Shown here piece after piece: positions 13,185 through 29,481 of a stretch of DNA of 48,308 nucleotides. How positions within the stretch are numbered: the first letter of the stretch is position 1; every line of letters starts with the position of its first letter. The notes below the pieces were generated by a model. It saw only the letters and a program-made list of their open reading frames with translations. It searched no databases and was not told the DNA's origin. The position numbers and the translations under genes are program-made. Source of the stretch: Candidatus Neomarinimicrobiota bacterium (GTDB lineage: Bacteria; Fidelibacterota; Marinisomatia; SCGC-AAA003-L08; TS1B11); the NCBI GenBank assembly GCA_022560655.1, contig JADFSS010000011.1, positions 1 to 48,308 of the forward strand, read 5' to 3'.

Positions 13185-15893
13185 CTAATGCGCTTCATAC
13201 CAGCTGGGTCCAAAACCCCAGTCAACCTTCAGCGGCACGTCCAGCGTCATGGCCGACTCCATCTCTGGCACCACCATGTCCCGCAGGCGTTGCACCTCGT
13301 CATCGGGGGTCTCGAAAAGCAATTCATCATGAATCTGAAGGATCATCTTTGACCCGAAATTTTCCGCGCTCAGCCGCTTCTGTATCTGAATCATGGCGAG
13401 CTTGATCAGCTCTGCGGCGGTGCCCTGGATAGGCATGTTCACGGCAATCCGTTCATCAGCGCTGCGCAGTCGCTGGTTACCCGACTTGATATAGGGCAGC
13501 TTCCGTCGGCGGCCAAGGATGGTCTTGACATACCCGTCTGAGCGCGCCTGTTCCAGCAAATCATCGATGAACTTACGAATGCCGGGATAGGTGTTGAAGT
13601 ACCGGTCGATGAGCTCCCGGCCCTCCTGTATCGTGATGTCCAGCTCCTGGGACATGCGAAAGGGACCCGCACCGTATAGAATGCCAAAGTTCACCACCTT
13701 GGCGGTGCGGCGCTGTTCGGGCGTTATCTCCTCGGCGGGTGTCTGAAACACCATGGCAGCGGTCTGGGCATGAATATCCATCCCCGCGCGAAAGGCCTCC
13801 AGCAGGGTCGCTTCGCCGGCCATGTGCGCCATGATGCGCAGCTCGATCTGGGAATAGTCCGCCGAGAATATGCCCCAGCCGGATTCCTGGGCGCGGAAGG
13901 CCCGCCGGATTTCCCTGCCCAGCTCGGTGCGAATAGGGATGTTCTGAAAGTTAGGGTCCCGGCTGGAAAGCCTGCCGGTGGCGGCGGTGGTCTGGCTGAA
14001 GGAGCTGTGTACGCGGCCGGTGCCCGACAGTACCAGGGCTGGAAAGGCGTCCACATAGGTCGACTTGAGCTTCTTCACCTGCCGGTAATCCAGTATCAGC
14101 TTGGGCAGCGGGTGCTGGTCCTTCAGCATTTCCAGAACGGTGACATCCGTGCTACGCTTGCGCACTTCCTTCAGGGCCAACTCGTCAAACAGCACCACGG
14201 CCAACTGCTGGGGCGAGTTGATGTTGAAGGTGGCATCGGCTGCAGCGTAGATTTCCTGTTCCAGTCCCGCGATACTCTCCGCCAACTCCCCGGACATGCG
14301 CTCCAGCAGGGGCAGGTCCAGAAAGACGCCGCTGCGCTCCATTTCCACGAGCACCGGTATAAGGGGTATTTCAATGCTCCCGATTGTGTCGCTGAGACCA
14401 TCGCGCTCCAACTGCGCCTGCAGGAGTGGGTACAGGAGCCCGGCCACATCGGCGTCTTCCGTGGCATAGTGGGCGATCTGCGCCAGAGGCACGTCAGCCA
14501 TGGAGCGCTGCTCTTTGCCCCGCTTACCGATGAGCTCCTCGATGGGCACCATGGGGTAGTTGAGGTAGCGCTCGCTCAAAACATCCAATTTATAGGTGGG
14601 GGCTTCCGGGTCCACCAGGTGGGCGGCTATCATGGTGTCAAACACAATACCCCGTAGCGCGACATCGTAGCGGGTCATCACCAGTGCGTCGTATTTGATA
14701 TTCTGGCCAAGTATGGGCCGCTCGGGGTCCTCAAGCAGCGGTTTCAGCCGCTCCAACAGGTAGGGCAGTTCCAGGCCCGGTTGCTGCTCCCGTTCAGGGT
14801 ATTGAACGGGTACATACCAGCCGTGGTGCGGCCGCGTGGAGAACGACAGCCCCACAATGTCCGCCTCAAGGGGCGTTATGGAGGTGGTCTCCAGATCAAA
14901 TGAAAGCCATTCCGCCGCTGATAGCTCCTTGAGCATGGCGTCCAGCTCTGCTTCCGTCATGACGATCTCATAATCTTTTTCGGGCATCTCCACTTCTGGT
15001 GGCGCCTCTTGACCGGCCAGTGCCAGCAGATCGGCAATCATGGCCCTGATCTCCAGCTCCTTCAAGGCCTCGGCGGCGGCGGAGAAGTCCATCACCTGCA
15101 CCGACATTTCATCCAGCCCGATCTCCAGTGGCACATCGCAGTCGATGGTCACCAGCTCCTTGGAGAGCAGCGCCAGCTCGCGACCGCTTTCGAGCCCATC
15201 ACGGGCACGCTTGTTGGCCACCTCACCGGCGTGACTCAGCACATTTTCCAGAGAGCCGTACTTAGCAAGGAGCTTCCGGGCCGTCTTCTCCCCTACCCCC
15301 GGTACGCCGGGGACGTTGTCGGAACTGTCGCCCATCAGTCCCAGCAGATCAATCATCCTTTCCGGGGGCACGCCCCAACGCTCCTCGACCTTCGCCCGAT
15401 CGTAGATGGAGGCAGGCATTCTGGCACGGCCGGGCATGTAGACAAAGGTGTCATCGGAGACCAGTTGCAGCATATCCTTGTCACCGGTCACCAGGTAGGT
15501 CTGCCAGCCCTTGCCCTCCGCCCGGGTGGCCAGGGTGCCCATGATGTCGTCGGCCTCGTAGCCGGGCATTCTCAGCACCGGTACTTTCAGGGCCGCCAGA
15601 ACCTGGTCGAGCGGCTCGATTTGGGAGACCAGCTCCTCGGGCATCTTCTCCCGGGTGGCCTTGTATTCGGTGTAAATCTTGTGACGGAAGGTTTTTTCAC
15701 GCGCATCGAAGGTAATCGCCAGATGGTTGGGCGACTCCTCCCTCAGCAGGCGAACCAGGGTGGCCATAAACCCGAAGATGCCTGAAGTGACCTGCCCGGT
15801 GGAGGTGATAAGGGGATTGCGGATCATGGCAAAGTGGGCCCGGTAGAACAGGGCCGTGCCATCAAGGACAAACAGACGCTGGGGATCAGCCAT
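13185..15893 (-). CDS. polA: DNA polymerase I
   Basis: The 902-residue enzyme has all three activities. The N-terminal 5'-3' exonuclease occupies about residues 1-290. The 3'-5' exonuclease has an intact DLETTS metal-binding motif, so proofreading is probably active. The polymerase domain shows motif A (DYSQIELRIMAHM), motif B/O-helix (RRTAKVVNFGILYG) and motif C (QIHDELLFE). It fills gaps and removes RNA primers. ATG at 15893 (MADPQRLFVLDGTALFYRAH) matches the family start; the frame could open with TTG at 15917. It probably leads the kinase-alr-nagZ run. Confidence 0.97.
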   Translation of the reverse strand: MADPQRLFVLDGTALFYRAHFAMIRNPLITSTGQVTSGIFGFMATLVRLLREESPNHLAITFDAREKTFRHKIYTEYKATREKMPEELVSQIEPLDQVLAALKVPVLRMPGYEADDIMGTLATRAEGKGWQTYLVTGDKDMLQLVSDDTFVYMPGRARMPASIYDRAKVEERWGVPPERMIDLLGLMGDSSDNVPGVPGVGEKTARKLLAKYGSLENVLSHAGEVANKRARDGLESGRELALLSKELVTIDCDVPLEIGLDEMSVQVMDFSAAAEALKELEIRAMIADLLALAGQEAPPEVEMPEKDYEIVMTEAELDAMLKELSAAEWLSFDLETTSITPLEADIVGLSFSTRPHHGWYVPVQYPEREQQPGLELPYLLERLKPLLEDPERPILGQNIKYDALVMTRYDVALRGIVFDTMIAAHLVDPEAPTYKLDVLSERYLNYPMVPIEELIGKRGKEQRSMADVPLAQIAHYATEDADVAGLLYPLLQAQLERDGLSDTIGSIEIPLIPVLVEMERSGVFLDLPLLERMSGELAESIAGLEQEIYAAADATFNINSPQQLAVVLFDELALKEVRKRSTDVTVLEMLKDQHPLPKLILDYRQVKKLKSTYVDAFPALVLSGTGRVHSSFSQTTAATGRLSSRDPNFQNIPIRTELGREIRRAFRAQESGWGIFSADYSQIELRIMAHMAGEATLLEAFRAGMDIHAQTAAMVFQTPAEEITPEQRRTAKVVNFGILYGAGPFRMSQELDITIQEGRELIDRYFNTYPGIRKFIDDLLEQARSDGYVKTILGRRRKLPYIKSGNQRLRSADERIAVNMPIQGTAAELIKLAMIQIQKRLSAENFGSKMILQIHDELLFETPDDEVQRLRDMVVPEMESAMTLDVPLKVDWGFGPSWYEAH

Positions 15894-15991
15894 CGCTGGG
15901 AGCCATGTTAGTGACAATCGTCCGGCGCGACAAGTCCGCAGTCGCCCCGCTCAAGACGCGGTCGGGCCGCCTGCCGCGGGTGGTTTAACCG

Positions 15992-18493
15992 TTACAGTCG
16001 CAGTGCCAGCTCGACGAAATAGCTGCGCGTGGCCGCCGGCCAGTAGACGTCCACCCGGTACGGGCCATCATCCCAATCCCAGTAGTTGTACCCGAACGTT
16101 TCGTACAGCGCATCCAGGGCGTTGGTGACCTTAAAGCTGAGGGTCGCCGCTGATGGCCGCAAGCCGAGCAACCTGGCGGGCCGCAGCACCAGCCCAATAT
16201 TGAGCACCCGCGAGGGATCGATGGCCGCTTCCGCCGTATTCTGCCGGTCGATGAAAATCCTGCCCGTAAAGCGGGCCTCGCCCCACAGTTCCAGCCAATC
16301 GACCGTCCAATTCAGCCGCAGGCGGCCCATACTCTGGGGATGGCCCGGAATTTGGTTGCCCCCGTGGTTCACCGAGGAGTCAACCTGCCACTCGAAGGTG
16401 GTGTAGTCCACAAACCGGTTGTCGGCCACGGTCAGGGAACCGTCAAGGGCCAGCTGGTCCGTGAGCTGTTGGGAAAACTCAACCTCCAGCCCGCGGTGCA
16501 CGGTGAGGTCGGCGTTACCATGTTTCAGGACGCCGTCATCGGTGATGGTGCGATAGCTGAGGGGGATGAGCTCGTTCTGGAACCACATGTTGTATAGGCC
16601 GGTGGTCACCCGCAACCCGGGGGAGCGATACGTCCAGCCCAGCTCCAGGTCCCACAGCTCTTCGGCCTGGACCAGGGGTGTATCCAGGTCTTTACGGACC
16701 GCGGGCGCCCCGTCCAGGGCCGGCACCGCCCAGGGATCGTCGGCATCATAGATGTCGCTGTCAGCCGGTTCCCGTTGGGCCCGGGCCAGATTTACGTAGA
16801 CGGCTGTGCGCCTGCCGGTTACAACATGGAGTCCAGCCTTGGGAGCGATAAACGTGTAGGCCAATTCGTATTGATAGGGCTGCGTATAGGCCCCTATTTC
16901 TTCCTGATCAAACTGATAGCGGTGCCTCGTGATGCCTAGATCGGCCACCGCCGACAGGCTCGCCCCCAGCCGGAATACGGAGTGAACATATACCGACCCG
17001 CTGGTCTTGGCCGTCGCGTAGCGGTAGTATTCTACCGGCCCGGAAAAATCATGCCCGTCGTCCACCGGTCGCACCTCCCCGAAGTGAGTTGCCCCATAGC
17101 TGCGAAAACTGCCGCCCACCACCAGCGTGCCCCACGACCTGCGCAGGGTAGTCTGCGGGATCACCCCCCAATAGCCGTTGACCAGCCACTTCCGACGCAT
17201 GAGATCGACACTCTGGACGGTGTCCGGTAGCACATGCTTGAGATTATACTCCCACACATCGCGCCCCCCTTTGAACTGATCGTAAAAGCCGCGCCCCGAC
17301 ACTCCGTATAGGGTCACCGAGAACAGGCCCTGATCGCGCTTCACGGCGTGCTGTAGCGACAGGATGTTCTGCCTGAAAACATCCCGGTTGGCATCCTTGC
17401 TGCCCCCATTGTATTCCGGATCCGAGTAAAAATTGTAGCGGCGGGATTCACGGTCATCCAGGTCAAAATCAAATTGGGGACTGATGCCATCCCAAGAGAA
17501 GTGGGTCACTTCGGAACCGGAGATCAATTCCAGTTTGGTGCTTGAAAGGGGTCGGAGGCGCTCGGCAATGAGGTGCCCCGCGTCCTGCCGGGTGCCACTG
17601 CCCAGGCGATAGCCTGCGCTGTGGATACCGCTGTAGCGCCCATAGAGCGTGAGTGCCTGCCCCGCCAGCGGCTGCCCCGACCACTGCACCGCCAGCTTAC
17701 GGCTGGGGGAGACAAAGCCCCGGTCGGTAAAGTCTCCGTAGCCCGCCTTCATGGTTAGCCCCGGCGGGAGCGCCCGGGGGCTGGTCATCAGATTCACCGA
17801 GCCCCCCAATGAGGTTGTACCATACAGCGAATTCCCAATCCCCCGCTGTATCTGCACTTCGCCACTGCCGGCCAGAATGTCCCCGTGGTCCACCCAGTAC
17901 ACCTGGTGGCTTTCGGGGTCGTTGAGGGGGATGCCGTTGATCATCACGCCAATGCGGTCCTGATCGAAGCCACGAATTTTCAAATAGGTGTAGCCGACAC
18001 CGTTGCCGGCGTCGGAGAAGGCATACACACCGGGGACGCCGCTCAGGGCCATGGGCACGTCATCTACGCCGGCTGAGGCGAAGTCGCGCTGGCCCAGCGT
18101 CGTAAAGGCTATGGGGCTCTGGCCCGCTTCGGCTCGCGTGGCCGTTACGAACACCGGCTCCCCCAGCAGCAATCTGGCGTTCAGGGCCAGTTGCAGCGGC
18201 TCAGGGGCCGCCACGGTCTGCTGAGTCACCGGCACATCTAGAGGCTCATAGGCGATATGCGTCAGGCGCAGCACCTGGCCCGGTTCCACCGCCAAACGGA
18301 ACCACCCCTCCGGGTCGCTGATGGTGCCCACGTCGGTGCCCACGATGACCACGTTGACCCTTGCTATGCCCAGCTGGGTGTCCCTATCGGTGATGCGGGC
18401 ATGAACGCGCGAGCCCGCGCTGAGTTGCGCGGGTGCCAAGACAAGGAAAAGCGCCGAGACAATGATCCGACGCCAGATAGGATTCGATTGCAT
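15992..18493 (-). CDS. TonB-dependent outer-membrane receptor under TPP control, probable thiamine uptake
   Basis: The 833-residue product has a signal peptide, then a carboxypeptidase-regulatory-like beta-sandwich (about residues 28-110) with GTDVGTISDPEGWF. The plug domain includes LSGVPGVYAFSDAGNGVGY, IRGFDQDR, NGIPLNDPESHQVYWVDHG and SLYGTTSLGGSVNLM. A 22-strand-type beta-barrel ends in YFVELALRL. It imports a ligand with TonB-ExbBD energy. A TPP riboswitch ends at its start codon, which makes thiamine or a thiamine precursor the likely ligand; TPP-regulated receptors of this kind are known in Bacteroidota. ATG at 18493 with GGAGG five to six bases upstream fixes the start. Confidence 0.92.
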   Translation of the reverse strand: MQSNPIWRRIIVSALFLVLAPAQLSAGSRVHARITDRDTQLGIARVNVVIVGTDVGTISDPEGWFRLAVEPGQVLRLTHIAYEPLDVPVTQQTVAAPEPLQLALNARLLLGEPVFVTATRAEAGQSPIAFTTLGQRDFASAGVDDVPMALSGVPGVYAFSDAGNGVGYTYLKIRGFDQDRIGVMINGIPLNDPESHQVYWVDHGDILAGSGEVQIQRGIGNSLYGTTSLGGSVNLMTSPRALPPGLTMKAGYGDFTDRGFVSPSRKLAVQWSGQPLAGQALTLYGRYSGIHSAGYRLGSGTRQDAGHLIAERLRPLSSTKLELISGSEVTHFSWDGISPQFDFDLDDRESRRYNFYSDPEYNGGSKDANRDVFRQNILSLQHAVKRDQGLFSVTLYGVSGRGFYDQFKGGRDVWEYNLKHVLPDTVQSVDLMRRKWLVNGYWGVIPQTTLRRSWGTLVVGGSFRSYGATHFGEVRPVDDGHDFSGPVEYYRYATAKTSGSVYVHSVFRLGASLSAVADLGITRHRYQFDQEEIGAYTQPYQYELAYTFIAPKAGLHVVTGRRTAVYVNLARAQREPADSDIYDADDPWAVPALDGAPAVRKDLDTPLVQAEELWDLELGWTYRSPGLRVTTGLYNMWFQNELIPLSYRTITDDGVLKHGNADLTVHRGLEVEFSQQLTDQLALDGSLTVADNRFVDYTTFEWQVDSSVNHGGNQIPGHPQSMGRLRLNWTVDWLELWGEARFTGRIFIDRQNTAEAAIDPSRVLNIGLVLRPARLLGLRPSAATLSFKVTNALDALYETFGYNYWDWDDGPYRVDVYWPAATRSYFVELALRL

Positions 18494-18578
18494 GCTTCCC
18501 TCCGCTGGTATTATCCAGTTCAGGTTCAATGGGTGTCTTCTCAGCCGCCCGCATTTTGGAGCAGCACCCCACAGGCCC
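18494..18578 (-). promoter_or_regulatory. TPP (THI-box) riboswitch
   Basis: On the minus strand the leader shows the TPP aptamer landmarks in order: GTGGGGTGC (around 18564-18573), GGCTGAGAAGACACCC, then TTGAACCTGAACTGGAT and ATAATACCAGCGGAGGGAAGC directly before the ATG. The 3' conserved GGAGGG of the aptamer is also the ribosome binding site. Thiamine pyrophosphate binding would therefore occlude it, predicting translational repression. It controls the TonB receptor downstream. Confidence 0.95.
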
Positions 18579-18750
18579 ACAAGTTAATGACCCCAAGGCG
18601 TTTACACCATGTAATTGCACCGCTGCCGGCTTCACCGGCCAGTGGCCAAAGCCCGCCCTCTGGCAGGCCAGCGGGACGGGGCGCAAAGAGATTGTCACCC
18701 TCTTACCCTCGTGCTTACCTTTACGGCCAACTTATTTTAGAGGTTGCTTG

Positions 18751-20688
18751 ATGAAACCCCTTCCGGAAATCACGCTTAAAGCCGTTATTCTGGGGATCGT
18801 CCTGTCGATCATCCTGGCCGGCGCCAACGCCTACCTGGGGCTATTTGCCGGCCTCACTGTGTCGGCTTCCATCCCTGCCGCGGTGATTTCCATGGGCATA
18901 CTGCGCCTCTTCAGGACCTCCAACATACTGGAGAATAACATCGTTCAAACGGCCGCCTCAGCGGGCGAATCTCTCGCCGCCGGGGTCATTTTTACCATCC
19001 CCGCGCTCATTCTGATGGGCTACTGGACAGAATTCAGTTTCGCCGATCACTACTGGATCATCACCGGCATCGCCGCCACAGGGGGACTGGTGGGTGTGCT
19101 GTTTACCATTCCCCTGCGCCGCGCCCTCATCGTGGAGGAAAATCTTCAATACCCGGAAGGCGTCGCCACCGCCGAGGTGCTGAAGTCGGGCGAGTCCGGT
19201 GCCAAGGGGTTGAACTTTCTGATCCAGGCCGCCGTTGTGGGCGCCGTCTTCAAGTTTTGCGCTGAGGGTCTGGCCCTCTGGTCCGCCAAACTGTCGGCTG
19301 CCGCGGCCATTGGGCGCTCGTACTTCTCGTTCCAGATTAATCTGTCGCCGGCGCTCATCTCAGTGGGCTACATCGTAGGGCTCAATATCGCCACCCTCGT
19401 CTTTGCCGGCGGCGTTATGGGCCGGTGGCTGGCCCTGCCCATCATGGGACCCGGCCATGAGATCCCCCCTGACGTAATCTTCGACAGTGCCAACGATGCG
19501 GTTATCTATCTGCACAACAACGTTGTGAGATTTCTGGGCGTGGGCGCCATGATCGTTGGCGGCCTGTGGGCCCTGATCAATCTGCGCCACTCCGTGGTTC
19601 GGGGTATCAAAGCCAGCATGGAAGTATACCGTGAGTCGCGCCGGCCGGGCGAATCCAAGGTGGAGCGCACCGAAATGGATACACCCCTGCCCTGGGTGTT
19701 GGTCGCACTGGTGGTCGCATTAGTGCCCATTTTTGCCATCTACCTCACCGTCGTTCATAACGTCCTCATCACCGCATTAATGGCTGTGTTTATGTTGCTC
19801 GCGGGCTTTGTCTTTTCTGCCGTTGCGGCCTACATGGCCGGCCTGGTGGGATCATCCAACAACCCTATATCCGGCGTCACCATCGCCACGATCCTGTCAT
19901 CGGCGCTCCTGCTTTACATTCTCAAGGTCTACGGAAATGTGGACGTGGGGCCGGCAGCGGCCATCTTCATTGGGGCGGTAGTGGCCTGCGCGGCGGCCAT
20001 CGGTGGTGACAATCTGCAGGACCTGAAGGCCGGCTACATCGTAGGCGCCACGCCTTGGAAGCAGCAGGTCATGCAGGCCGTGGGGACGATCTCCGCCGCA
20101 TTTGTGATGATGCCTATTCTGTGGCTGTTGCACAAGCGTTACGGCATCGGCATGCAGGTCACGCCAGGCGTTGATCCCCTGGAGGCTCCCCAGGCTTCCC
20201 TCATGGCCAGTATCGCCAACGGGGTATTTAACCAGGACCTCCCCTGGAACTACATCTTTATGGGTGGGATTATCGCCGCCGCCATCATCGTTCTGGACAA
20301 GATTCTGGAAGGCAGGCAATCCCCGTTCCGCACGCCGGTGCTGGCCGTGGCCATAGGGCTTTATCTGCCCTTCCATCTGGTGGTGCCCATCTTCATCGGC
20401 GGCGTCATCGCCTATCTCACCAGCAAGTCCTGGTCACTCCACTCGGACAAAGTCAACCAGCCGGGTCTGCTCTATGCCTCAGGGCTCATCACGGGGGAGG
20501 CCTTGGTGGGCATTTTCCTGGCCTTACCGCTCATGATCAAGGAATTCAGCCCCTGGAAAAGCATACCCACTGAATACGCCCTGTTTGCAACGCCCCCCTT
20601 TGGGCCCTGGCCCGGCGTCATACTGCTGGCGGTTGTCATCTACCTGCTCTACAATGTGGCCCAGCGAAACCGCAGCGATGGGGACTAG
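18751..20688 (+). CDS. OPT-family oligopeptide/metal-chelate transporter
   Basis: The 645-residue integral inner-membrane protein has about fourteen or more hydrophobic segments. It opens with the OPT signature region (TLKAVILGIVLSIILAGANA, YLGLFAGLTVSASIPAAVIS) and NNIVQTAASAGESLAAG, which matches the bacterial OPT/YSL group (TIGR00733 type). These proteins take up peptides or metal-chelates by proton coupling; the bacterial substrate is mostly unknown. ATG at 18751 has AGAGG 8-9 bases upstream; the longer open frame back to 18529 crosses the antisense riboswitch and is not coding. It is divergent from the thiamine receptor, but no riboswitch faces this gene. Confidence 0.93.
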   Translation: MKPLPEITLKAVILGIVLSIILAGANAYLGLFAGLTVSASIPAAVISMGILRLFRTSNILENNIVQTAASAGESLAAGVIFTIPALILMGYWTEFSFADHYWIITGIAATGGLVGVLFTIPLRRALIVEENLQYPEGVATAEVLKSGESGAKGLNFLIQAAVVGAVFKFCAEGLALWSAKLSAAAAIGRSYFSFQINLSPALISVGYIVGLNIATLVFAGGVMGRWLALPIMGPGHEIPPDVIFDSANDAVIYLHNNVVRFLGVGAMIVGGLWALINLRHSVVRGIKASMEVYRESRRPGESKVERTEMDTPLPWVLVALVVALVPIFAIYLTVVHNVLITALMAVFMLLAGFVFSAVAAYMAGLVGSSNNPISGVTIATILSSALLLYILKVYGNVDVGPAAAIFIGAVVACAAAIGGDNLQDLKAGYIVGATPWKQQVMQAVGTISAAFVMMPILWLLHKRYGIGMQVTPGVDPLEAPQASLMASIANGVFNQDLPWNYIFMGGIIAAAIIVLDKILEGRQSPFRTPVLAVAIGLYLPFHLVVPIFIGGVIAYLTSKSWSLHSDKVNQPGLLYASGLITGEALVGIFLALPLMIKEFSPWKSIPTEYALFATPPFGPWPGVILLAVVIYLLYNVAQRNRSDGD

Positions 20689-29379: not shown

Positions 29380-29481
29380 GCTTCGCGGAAACGTGTCGGA
29401 GTCGAACCGACCATCCATCAACCGACAGATCAACAGTTTTGAAGACTGCGGCGCCCACCGGGGTCGCGTACGCTTCCAGGG

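Follow-up and report, generated by a model that had tools for sequence, protein, structure and literature searches.

This report concerns a riboswitch and the gene behind it in a fragment of a bacterial genome. The window, by which we mean the whole stretch of 48,308 nucleotides (nt) that was analysed, covers positions 1-48,308 of contig JADFSS010000011.1 (assembly GCA_022560655.1) from a Candidatus Neomarinimicrobiota bacterium (GTDB lineage Bacteria; Fidelibacterota; Marinisomatia; SCGC-AAA003-L08; TS1B11). On its minus strand, a thiamine pyrophosphate (TPP) aptamer overlaps the Shine-Dalgarno (SD) sequence of a gene encoding a TonB-dependent receptor. This overlap is confirmed, and the arrangement is beyond chance because it recurs in 137 of the 145 genomes of the phylum that were inspected. 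We consider it likely that the aptamer controls a thiamine receptor by direct occlusion of its ribosome site, without a separate expression platform. The combination of such a receptor with a TPP switch is already known from Bacteroides (OMthi) and Caldithrix. New here are an aptamer-only layout, the fact that it recurs across a phylum, and its setting in thiamine salvage.

A cmscan search of the whole window returned a full-length match to the TPP model RF00059 (63.0 bits, model positions 1-105), where an earlier sequence-only reading of this DNA had placed a TPP switch (minus strand, 18494-18578). The conserved elements CUGAGA, GAACCUG (18527-18521) and GCGGAGGGA were all found in the aptamer. 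On the minus strand the order is TAACTT, P2 (from 18570), CUGAGA, GAACCUG, P5 (CUGG/CCAG), GCGGAGGGA, three bases, and the ATG at 18493 (Table 1). Alignment and sequence agree that CUGAGA and the pyrophosphate arm P4/P5 (GCG) are both conserved. We take CUGAGA to be the thiamine-pocket strand, as in thiM structures, and assume that it and the P4/P5 arm have their usual ligand-contact roles. The Rfam alignment is imperfect at two places: the short P1 contains one mismatch, and P4 has a G-G at its base. The same reading had proposed that the conserved 3' tail of the aptamer is the ribosome site of the receptor, and this was borne out: the SD consists of the 3' strand of lower P4 together with the conserved GGGA. 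Its statement that the aptamer ends exactly at the start codon is correct to within 3 nt, as the bases AGC lie between the last conserved A and the ATG (18493-18491). No intergenic sequence remains, so there is no room for a separate expression platform. In its layout the locus matches the direct-occlusion switches, with a ribosome site inside the aptamer and a start codon 3 nt further on. The robust part of the occlusion reading is the SD embedded in P4 and the adjoining junction; P1 gives the start codon only weak cover. The search was extended to the rest of the 2.33-Mb, 95%-complete genome, where no second TPP match was found.

Table 1. Positions of the riboswitch, the receptor gene and other features within the window.
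Feature	Positions	Strand	Basis or remark
-10-like hexamer TAACTT	18581..18586	-	10 nt upstream of P2; consensus match
TPP riboswitch aptamer, full Rfam match	18478..18581	-	RF00059, 63.0 bits, cut-off 54.3, E 4e-10
P2 (GGGG/ACCC), P3, CUGAGA strand (18544-18539)	18531..18570	-	Rfam alignment and fold
P4/P5 arm: CCU (18524-18522) with AGG (18501-18499); P5 CUGG/CCAG	18497..18524	-	Rfam structure line; minimum-energy fold of short transcripts
GGAGGGA: P4 3' strand and junction, Shine-Dalgarno	18497..18503	-	Sequence
TonB-dependent receptor gene, 833 aa; proposed outer-membrane thiamine receptor	15992..18493	-	Pfam
Hairpin in codons 7-15 (+20 to +44), followed by UUUCCUUG; possible pause or terminator	18450..18474	-	Fold energy; putative function
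polA	13185-15917	-	Directly downstream of receptor
OPT transporter gene, divergent	18736-20688	+	Upstream of receptor
Selenocysteine tRNA	29387-29477	-	65.2 bits

Recurrence across the phylum carries much of the argument. A TPP match was found in 172 of 245 genomes (above the cut-off in 156), and 162 of these 172 have exactly one, as counted from the listing of 192 matches. Inspection covered 164 of the matches, from 145 genomes; five from the window's family were added later, and 23 were left out. An open frame lies downstream of 149 of the 164 and starts within 12 nt in 141 cases. All but three of these 141 frames (138, from 137 of the 145 genomes) matched a receptor profile that was built up in iterations from proteins related to the one in the window. 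In these 138 loci the start codon (ATG in 133, TTG in 5) lies 0-10 nt past the last conserved A of the aptamer, with a median of 6. As yardsticks, the distance from GGGA to the start in E. coli K-12 is 51 nt for thiM, 48 nt for thiB and 97 nt for thiC. An anti-SD duplex search confined to the stretch between the aptamer tail and the start codon placed the SD so that it shares at least 3 nt with AGGGA in 138/138 loci. When aptamer position 79 (thiM numbering) is G, giving GGAGG, the start codon is at most 5 nt away in 28 of 48 loci, compared with 11 of 90 otherwise (p 2e-8, a value that ignores relatedness among loci). A nearer start in these loci is expected if the spacing between SD and start is kept.

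Could the aptamer be a non-functional remnant whose overlap with the ribosome site is fortuitous? The P1 mismatch and the G-G at the base of P4 would fit decay, but the recurrence in 137/145 genomes, the nearer start where position 79 makes GGAGG and the retention of the aptamer in all 11 genomes of the window's family (above the cut-off in 9) make this very improbable.

In three genomes a second TPP match shares a contig with genes for thiamine biosynthesis and lies 5' of them (ThiC in G007, ThiC and ThiE in G215 and G221). The first called frame after these second matches (L094, L075 and L114) is 87, 56 and 54 nt away in G007, G215 and G221, respectively, and in G215 and G221 a separate AGGAGG ribosome site precedes that frame. 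The receptor copies of the same genomes are only 3 nt (G007) and 7 nt (G215) from their starts, so that two architectures exist within one genome; the receptor copy of G221, cut by the contig end, reads GGGAGGTTATAATG. These second matches belong to the 26 inspected matches outside the receptor set, which also include 11 copies in G062, the second match of G178, both matches of G022, G023 and G223, the G221 receptor copy, and single matches in G056, G098, G143 and G168. Several of the 26 are cut by contig ends.

Of 143 loci, 132 have a TANNNT hexamer beginning between 24 and 15 nt upstream of P2, most often at -18 (52 loci) and -17 (30 loci); in six other 10-nt windows the count is 35-49 of 143. 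Since this -10-like hexamer adjoins the aptamer, the 5' untranslated region is probably little more than the aptamer itself. If the hexamer is a -10 element, transcription would, by the spacing rule that we assume, begin about 4-6 nt before P2, and P1 would then be limited to a few pairs. Rfam does pair part of the start codon in P1, and cover of the start codon by this helix was considered and rejected, as the real partners pair about as well as shuffled ones (p 0.15 in the window's family; p 0.03, marginal, elsewhere). An exchange of P1 strands of the tbpA type would have little to work with because the leader is short and P1 pairing is weak. These two features fit direct occlusion of the ribosome site better than P1 strand exchange, and the loci analysed did not yield a conserved P1 opposed by a rival anti-P1 or anti-SD strand.

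The gene behind the aptamer starts at 18493; the listed frame, which starts at a GTG at 18580, is over-extended. Its product matches two Pfam families above their cut-offs, TonB_dep_Rec_b-barrel (PF00593, 1.1e-16) and Plug (PF07715, 1.7e-12), and has sub-threshold CarboxypepD_reg-like matches near its N-terminus. Among solved structures it has only distant relatives (colicin I receptor, 5e-5). Relatives were found at 62 loci, 55 of them in entries titled Neomarinimicrobiota or Marinimicrobia; the others belong to unnamed bacteria, an FCB-group bacterium and one Eisenbacteria.

What would such a receptor import? Pfam searches for ThiC, ThiE and ThiN, with thiazole genes not searched, found none of the three in the 11 genomes of the window's family, and no match to the PnuC/PnuT family was found in these genomes either. 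The TPP switch and thiamine pyrophosphokinase (TPK) are each present in all 11. The same searches in 14 reference genomes, used as positive controls, recovered ThiC in 13, ThiE in 11, ThiN in 5, PnuC in 5 and TPK in 7. Across the phylum, many of whose genomes are incomplete, ThiC occurs in 6 of 245 genomes (4 of 94 near-complete ones); ThiE matches at E 0.001 occur in 46 of 245 and are strong in only 5. Known routes for joining the two halves of thiamine need ThiE or ThiN, and TPK can use thiamine; intact thiamine is thus the expected cargo and, judging from gene content, the most likely one. The sequence-only reading had named thiamine or a precursor, and of these thiamine is retained. A TPP switch alone does not fix the cargo, and in G178 a weak TPP match precedes a frame that looks like a THI5/NMT1-type protein. 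Nevertheless, with TPK in all 11 family genomes and no ThiE or ThiN match in any, it is improbable that the receptor imports a precursor or another TPP-linked compound such as hydroxymethylpyrimidine (HMP) or thiazole, although TPP itself could still be the compound imported.

Gene neighbourhoods point to a partner in the inner membrane. In the window's own genome, TPK is followed by a sodium:solute symporter (SSF; Pfam 8.9e-29 over the 401 aa analysed), and an SSF homologue adjoins TPK in 11 of the 12 TPK loci of the family. Members of the same symporter family lie directly 3' of the TPP-receptor gene in 12 genomes from two other families of the order, and the window genome's own SSF protein matches them at E 2.6e-51 to 1.7e-89. 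This adjacency spans both groups of TPP-linked receptors in a receptor tree (one includes G179 and G180, the other G160 and G166). TPK follows the TPP-receptor gene in four genomes of another family. The loci behind these counts number 98, all with a complete receptor; in 61 a same-strand frame lies within 250 nt, and the neighbours were identified by Pfam from one representative each of SSF and TPK. The linkage to salvage genes (SSF 12, TPK 4) is thus seen in other genomes of the phylum; in the window the next gene is polA.

From these observations we infer the following scheme. The host apparently cannot make thiamine, and the gene at 18493-15992 would encode a TonB-driven receptor through which thiamine crosses the outer membrane. 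The sodium:solute symporter encoded beside TPK would probably carry thiamine across the inner membrane, and TPK would convert it to TPP. The receptor mRNA would begin at or just before the aptamer, which ends at the ribosome site. At low TPP the lower part of P4, held by just three pairs (CCU:AGG) and therefore weak, would open and the 30S subunit could bind GGAGG. When TPP is plentiful, its binding would lock P4/P5 against P2/P3, bury GGAGGGA and switch translation off. The net effect would be feedback by direct occlusion, with neither an anti-P1 strand nor a separate expression platform.

Several findings weigh against parts of this scheme. Genomes with no TPP match make up 73 of the 245 in the phylum. 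In the receptor tree, a quick one with long branches and 48 sampled TPP-linked rows, these receptors form two groups of 28 and 20 rows, which may nonetheless share a single origin. The apparent auxotrophy rests on Pfam searches for three proteins, and the literature lists a THI4 thiazole synthase from a Marinimicrobia member (PMC8454699). The part given to the SSF symporter, probable as it is, comes from gene neighbourhood. In B. thetaiotaomicron, a single deletion of OMthi had no effect on growth, and the mechanism is called uncertain (PMC5613172). A hairpin in codons 7-15 may leave space for a second mechanism. Finally, none of the computed ligand-free (apo) folds has a fully open SD, and the outcome shifts with transcript start and length. 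In the transcript 18576-18434 the SD pairs with codons 4-8 (unpaired probability at most 0.17 per base), and a longer leader also pairs it in the apo fold (at most 0.19). Starting the transcript at 18573 restores the aptamer fold, yet the SD bases are still mostly paired (at most 0.41 unpaired).

The folds bear on a rival explanation, in which classical strand exchange operates as in thiM and tbpA. An anti-P1 strand or an anti-SD strand in the coding region would then compete with the aptamer, and the locus would only appear to be free of a platform. The pairing of codons 4-8 (UCCUAUCUG) with CGGAGGGA in the folds of the long 18576 transcript and of the longer leader is consistent with this, and a 2024 review groups TPP switches under strand exchange (PMC10907184). 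Against it, the aptamer fold comes back when the long transcript begins 3 nt further on, and this fold with its three-pair lower P4 (CCU:AGG) is found in the long transcript from 18573 as well as in both short ones. Little of the 5' strand of P1 is left by the -10-like element, and P1 pairs no better than with shuffled partners in the family and only marginally better elsewhere, with the p values given above. A coding-region anti-SD had been suggested by the window fold and by CCU triplets that several family copies, on visual inspection, have in codons 4-6; a synonymous-shuffle test found no selection for SD-complementary codons 4-8 (mean z +0.28 in the family, +0.16 in the rest). This candidate was set aside for that reason and is kept only as part of a rival that we regard as rather improbable.

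Direct occlusion without a platform, as the sequence-only reading had it, is therefore supported comparatively by the position of the SD within P4 and the junction, but the coding-region hairpin could be a hidden second layer. In the window this hairpin has a folding energy of about -11.5 kcal/mol. Of the 12 family copies, most have a hairpin of differing sequence at about this position (2 have none), and a good U-run was seen by eye in only 3 or 4. In a synonymous-shuffle test, 28-nt windows with starts at +17 and +20 had a family mean z of -1.38; none of 20,000 circular shifts of the profile was as low, and p was 0.00015 with one copy per genus. The test took in 138 of 146 genes, the other eight being too short or containing N. 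Its control set consisted of 18 family genes with strong SDs, as the start sites of non-TPP receptors are too uncertain to serve, and these gave z +0.26 and +0.10 at the same windows. The controls have a mild excess of local structure of their own at about +47 to +50 (z -0.79 and -0.90; small sample).

The hairpin raises the question of dual control, in which TPP would block translation and the hairpin with its U-rich run (18474-18442) would then terminate or pause transcription of the untranslated message; a translating ribosome would normally melt it. The family signal argues for such control, as do stronger terminator-like versions at +40 to +43 in G062, G069, G070 and G071 and the precedent of E. 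coli tbpA, which is also regulated at the mRNA level (PMC11487190). However, the effect is not general: for the other 126 genes the same test gave z -0.20 and p 0.80. When fold energies were compared directly, the difference from the 18 control genes lacked significance (p 0.16, or 0.11 against the 12 that are signal-like), a good U-run is missing from most family copies and the hairpin from two, and U-rich codons are expected in a signal peptide. A general coding-region terminator was also considered and set aside, since 77 of 141 loci have some hairpin with a T-run but only 14 reach -8 kcal/mol or stronger. With no significant positional signal outside the family, we confine the claim to these copies and to a few further lineages. 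Dual control thus appears unlikely, though less so than strand exchange, and we hold a working terminator or pause in the window itself to be equally doubtful.

How does the proposed direct occlusion at this locus compare with known systems? A close relative in kind is OMthi (BT2390) of B. thetaiotaomicron, compared by description, a TonB-dependent outer-membrane receptor behind a TPP switch whose mutants support a role in thiamine transport (PMC5613172). The OMthi transcript was not significantly changed by thiamine, so its control may be translational (PMC5613172). B. thetaiotaomicron differs in having an inner system, pnuT-tnr3, and in being able to make thiamine, whereas the window's family has no PnuC/PnuT, ThiC or ThiE match. 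In Caldithrix abyssi, Cabys_3975-3977 bring together the same parts, namely a TPP switch, a BT2390-like TonB receptor, a sodium-solute symporter and thiamin pyrophosphokinase (PMC5317091). The Caldithrix switch lies 163 nt upstream of its gene (PMC5317091), which leaves room for a platform; in the window the distance is 3 nt. The E. coli thiM, thiB (tbpA) and thiC switches use the same aptamer family, and TPP sequesters the SD in tbpA (PMC11487190). They differ in their much longer distances from GGGA to the start (51, 48 and 97 nt, as above) and in the anti-P1 stem described for tbpA and thiC; for the mRNA-level regulation of tbpA, 12 codons suffice (PMC11487190). The 2024 review places SAM-II/V, SAM-III, SAM-SAH and preQ1-I/II in the direct-occlusion group and does not name TPP among these classes (PMC10907184). 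Such switches share with the window's an embedded ribosome site and the lack of a separate platform, and differ from it in ligands and folds.

A broader generalization can be offered tentatively, and we would sooner doubt it than rely on it. The phylum may possess an aptamer-only class of TPP switches in which the aptamer is where transcription begins, P1 is no longer needed, a strand of P4 serves as the SD and TPP occludes it directly. In most genomes this would be the sole TPP switch, in a phylum that lives almost entirely by scavenging thiamine, and some lineages would couple the translation block to transcription through a hairpin in the signal-peptide codons. Neither the aptamer-only layout nor a dependence of the phylum on thiamine is stated in the titles or abstract openings of the papers that literature searches on riboswitches and on thiamin in Marinimicrobia/SAR406 listed. 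Overlaps of THI elements with ribosome sites may have been described by Rodionov et al. in 2002. TPP switches are usually portrayed as working by strand exchange through an expression platform of their own (PMC10907184). The comparative evidence from 145 genomes instead favours the simplest arrangement, a promoter, an aptamer that is also the ribosome site, and a gene; to what extent an aptamer can regulate by itself thereby becomes a directly testable question. The analysis also proposes a cargo for a family of TonB receptors and, as its likely inner-membrane partner, the SSF symporter beside TPK. A further prediction is a reliance of most Neomarinimicrobiota (SAR406) on dissolved thiamine.

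Some further observations were made along the way. Receptors of the smaller tree group (20 of the 48 rows; for example L145, L139 and L187, from several families) lie outside the clade of the window receptor and have the same kind of TPP switch; an SSF symporter follows some of them. G062 carries eleven extra copies of the TPP aptamer (L099, L103-L112), mostly degenerate and most with no long open frame. Several are followed by a hairpin and T-run (CCTCTTC...GAAGGGGATT) that resemble the start of the receptor gene of G062, and these copies are either dispersed 5' fragments of that gene or a spreading regulatory element. Paired TPP matches occur in G022 and G023 (L132, L087, L115), a few hundred bases apart in G022 and about 3,400 in G023, and three of the four are followed by what look by eye like ordinary terminator hairpins. 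The weak TPP match of G178 (L101, 45 bits) lies one base before the 289-aa frame mentioned above, which we take to resemble a THI5/NMT1-type protein, and is possibly another fusion of aptamer and SD. Proteins encoded by the gene next to the receptor resemble polA, by eye, in one cluster from eight other genomes. Elsewhere in the window, the selenocysteine tRNA suggests that the organism probably makes selenoproteins.

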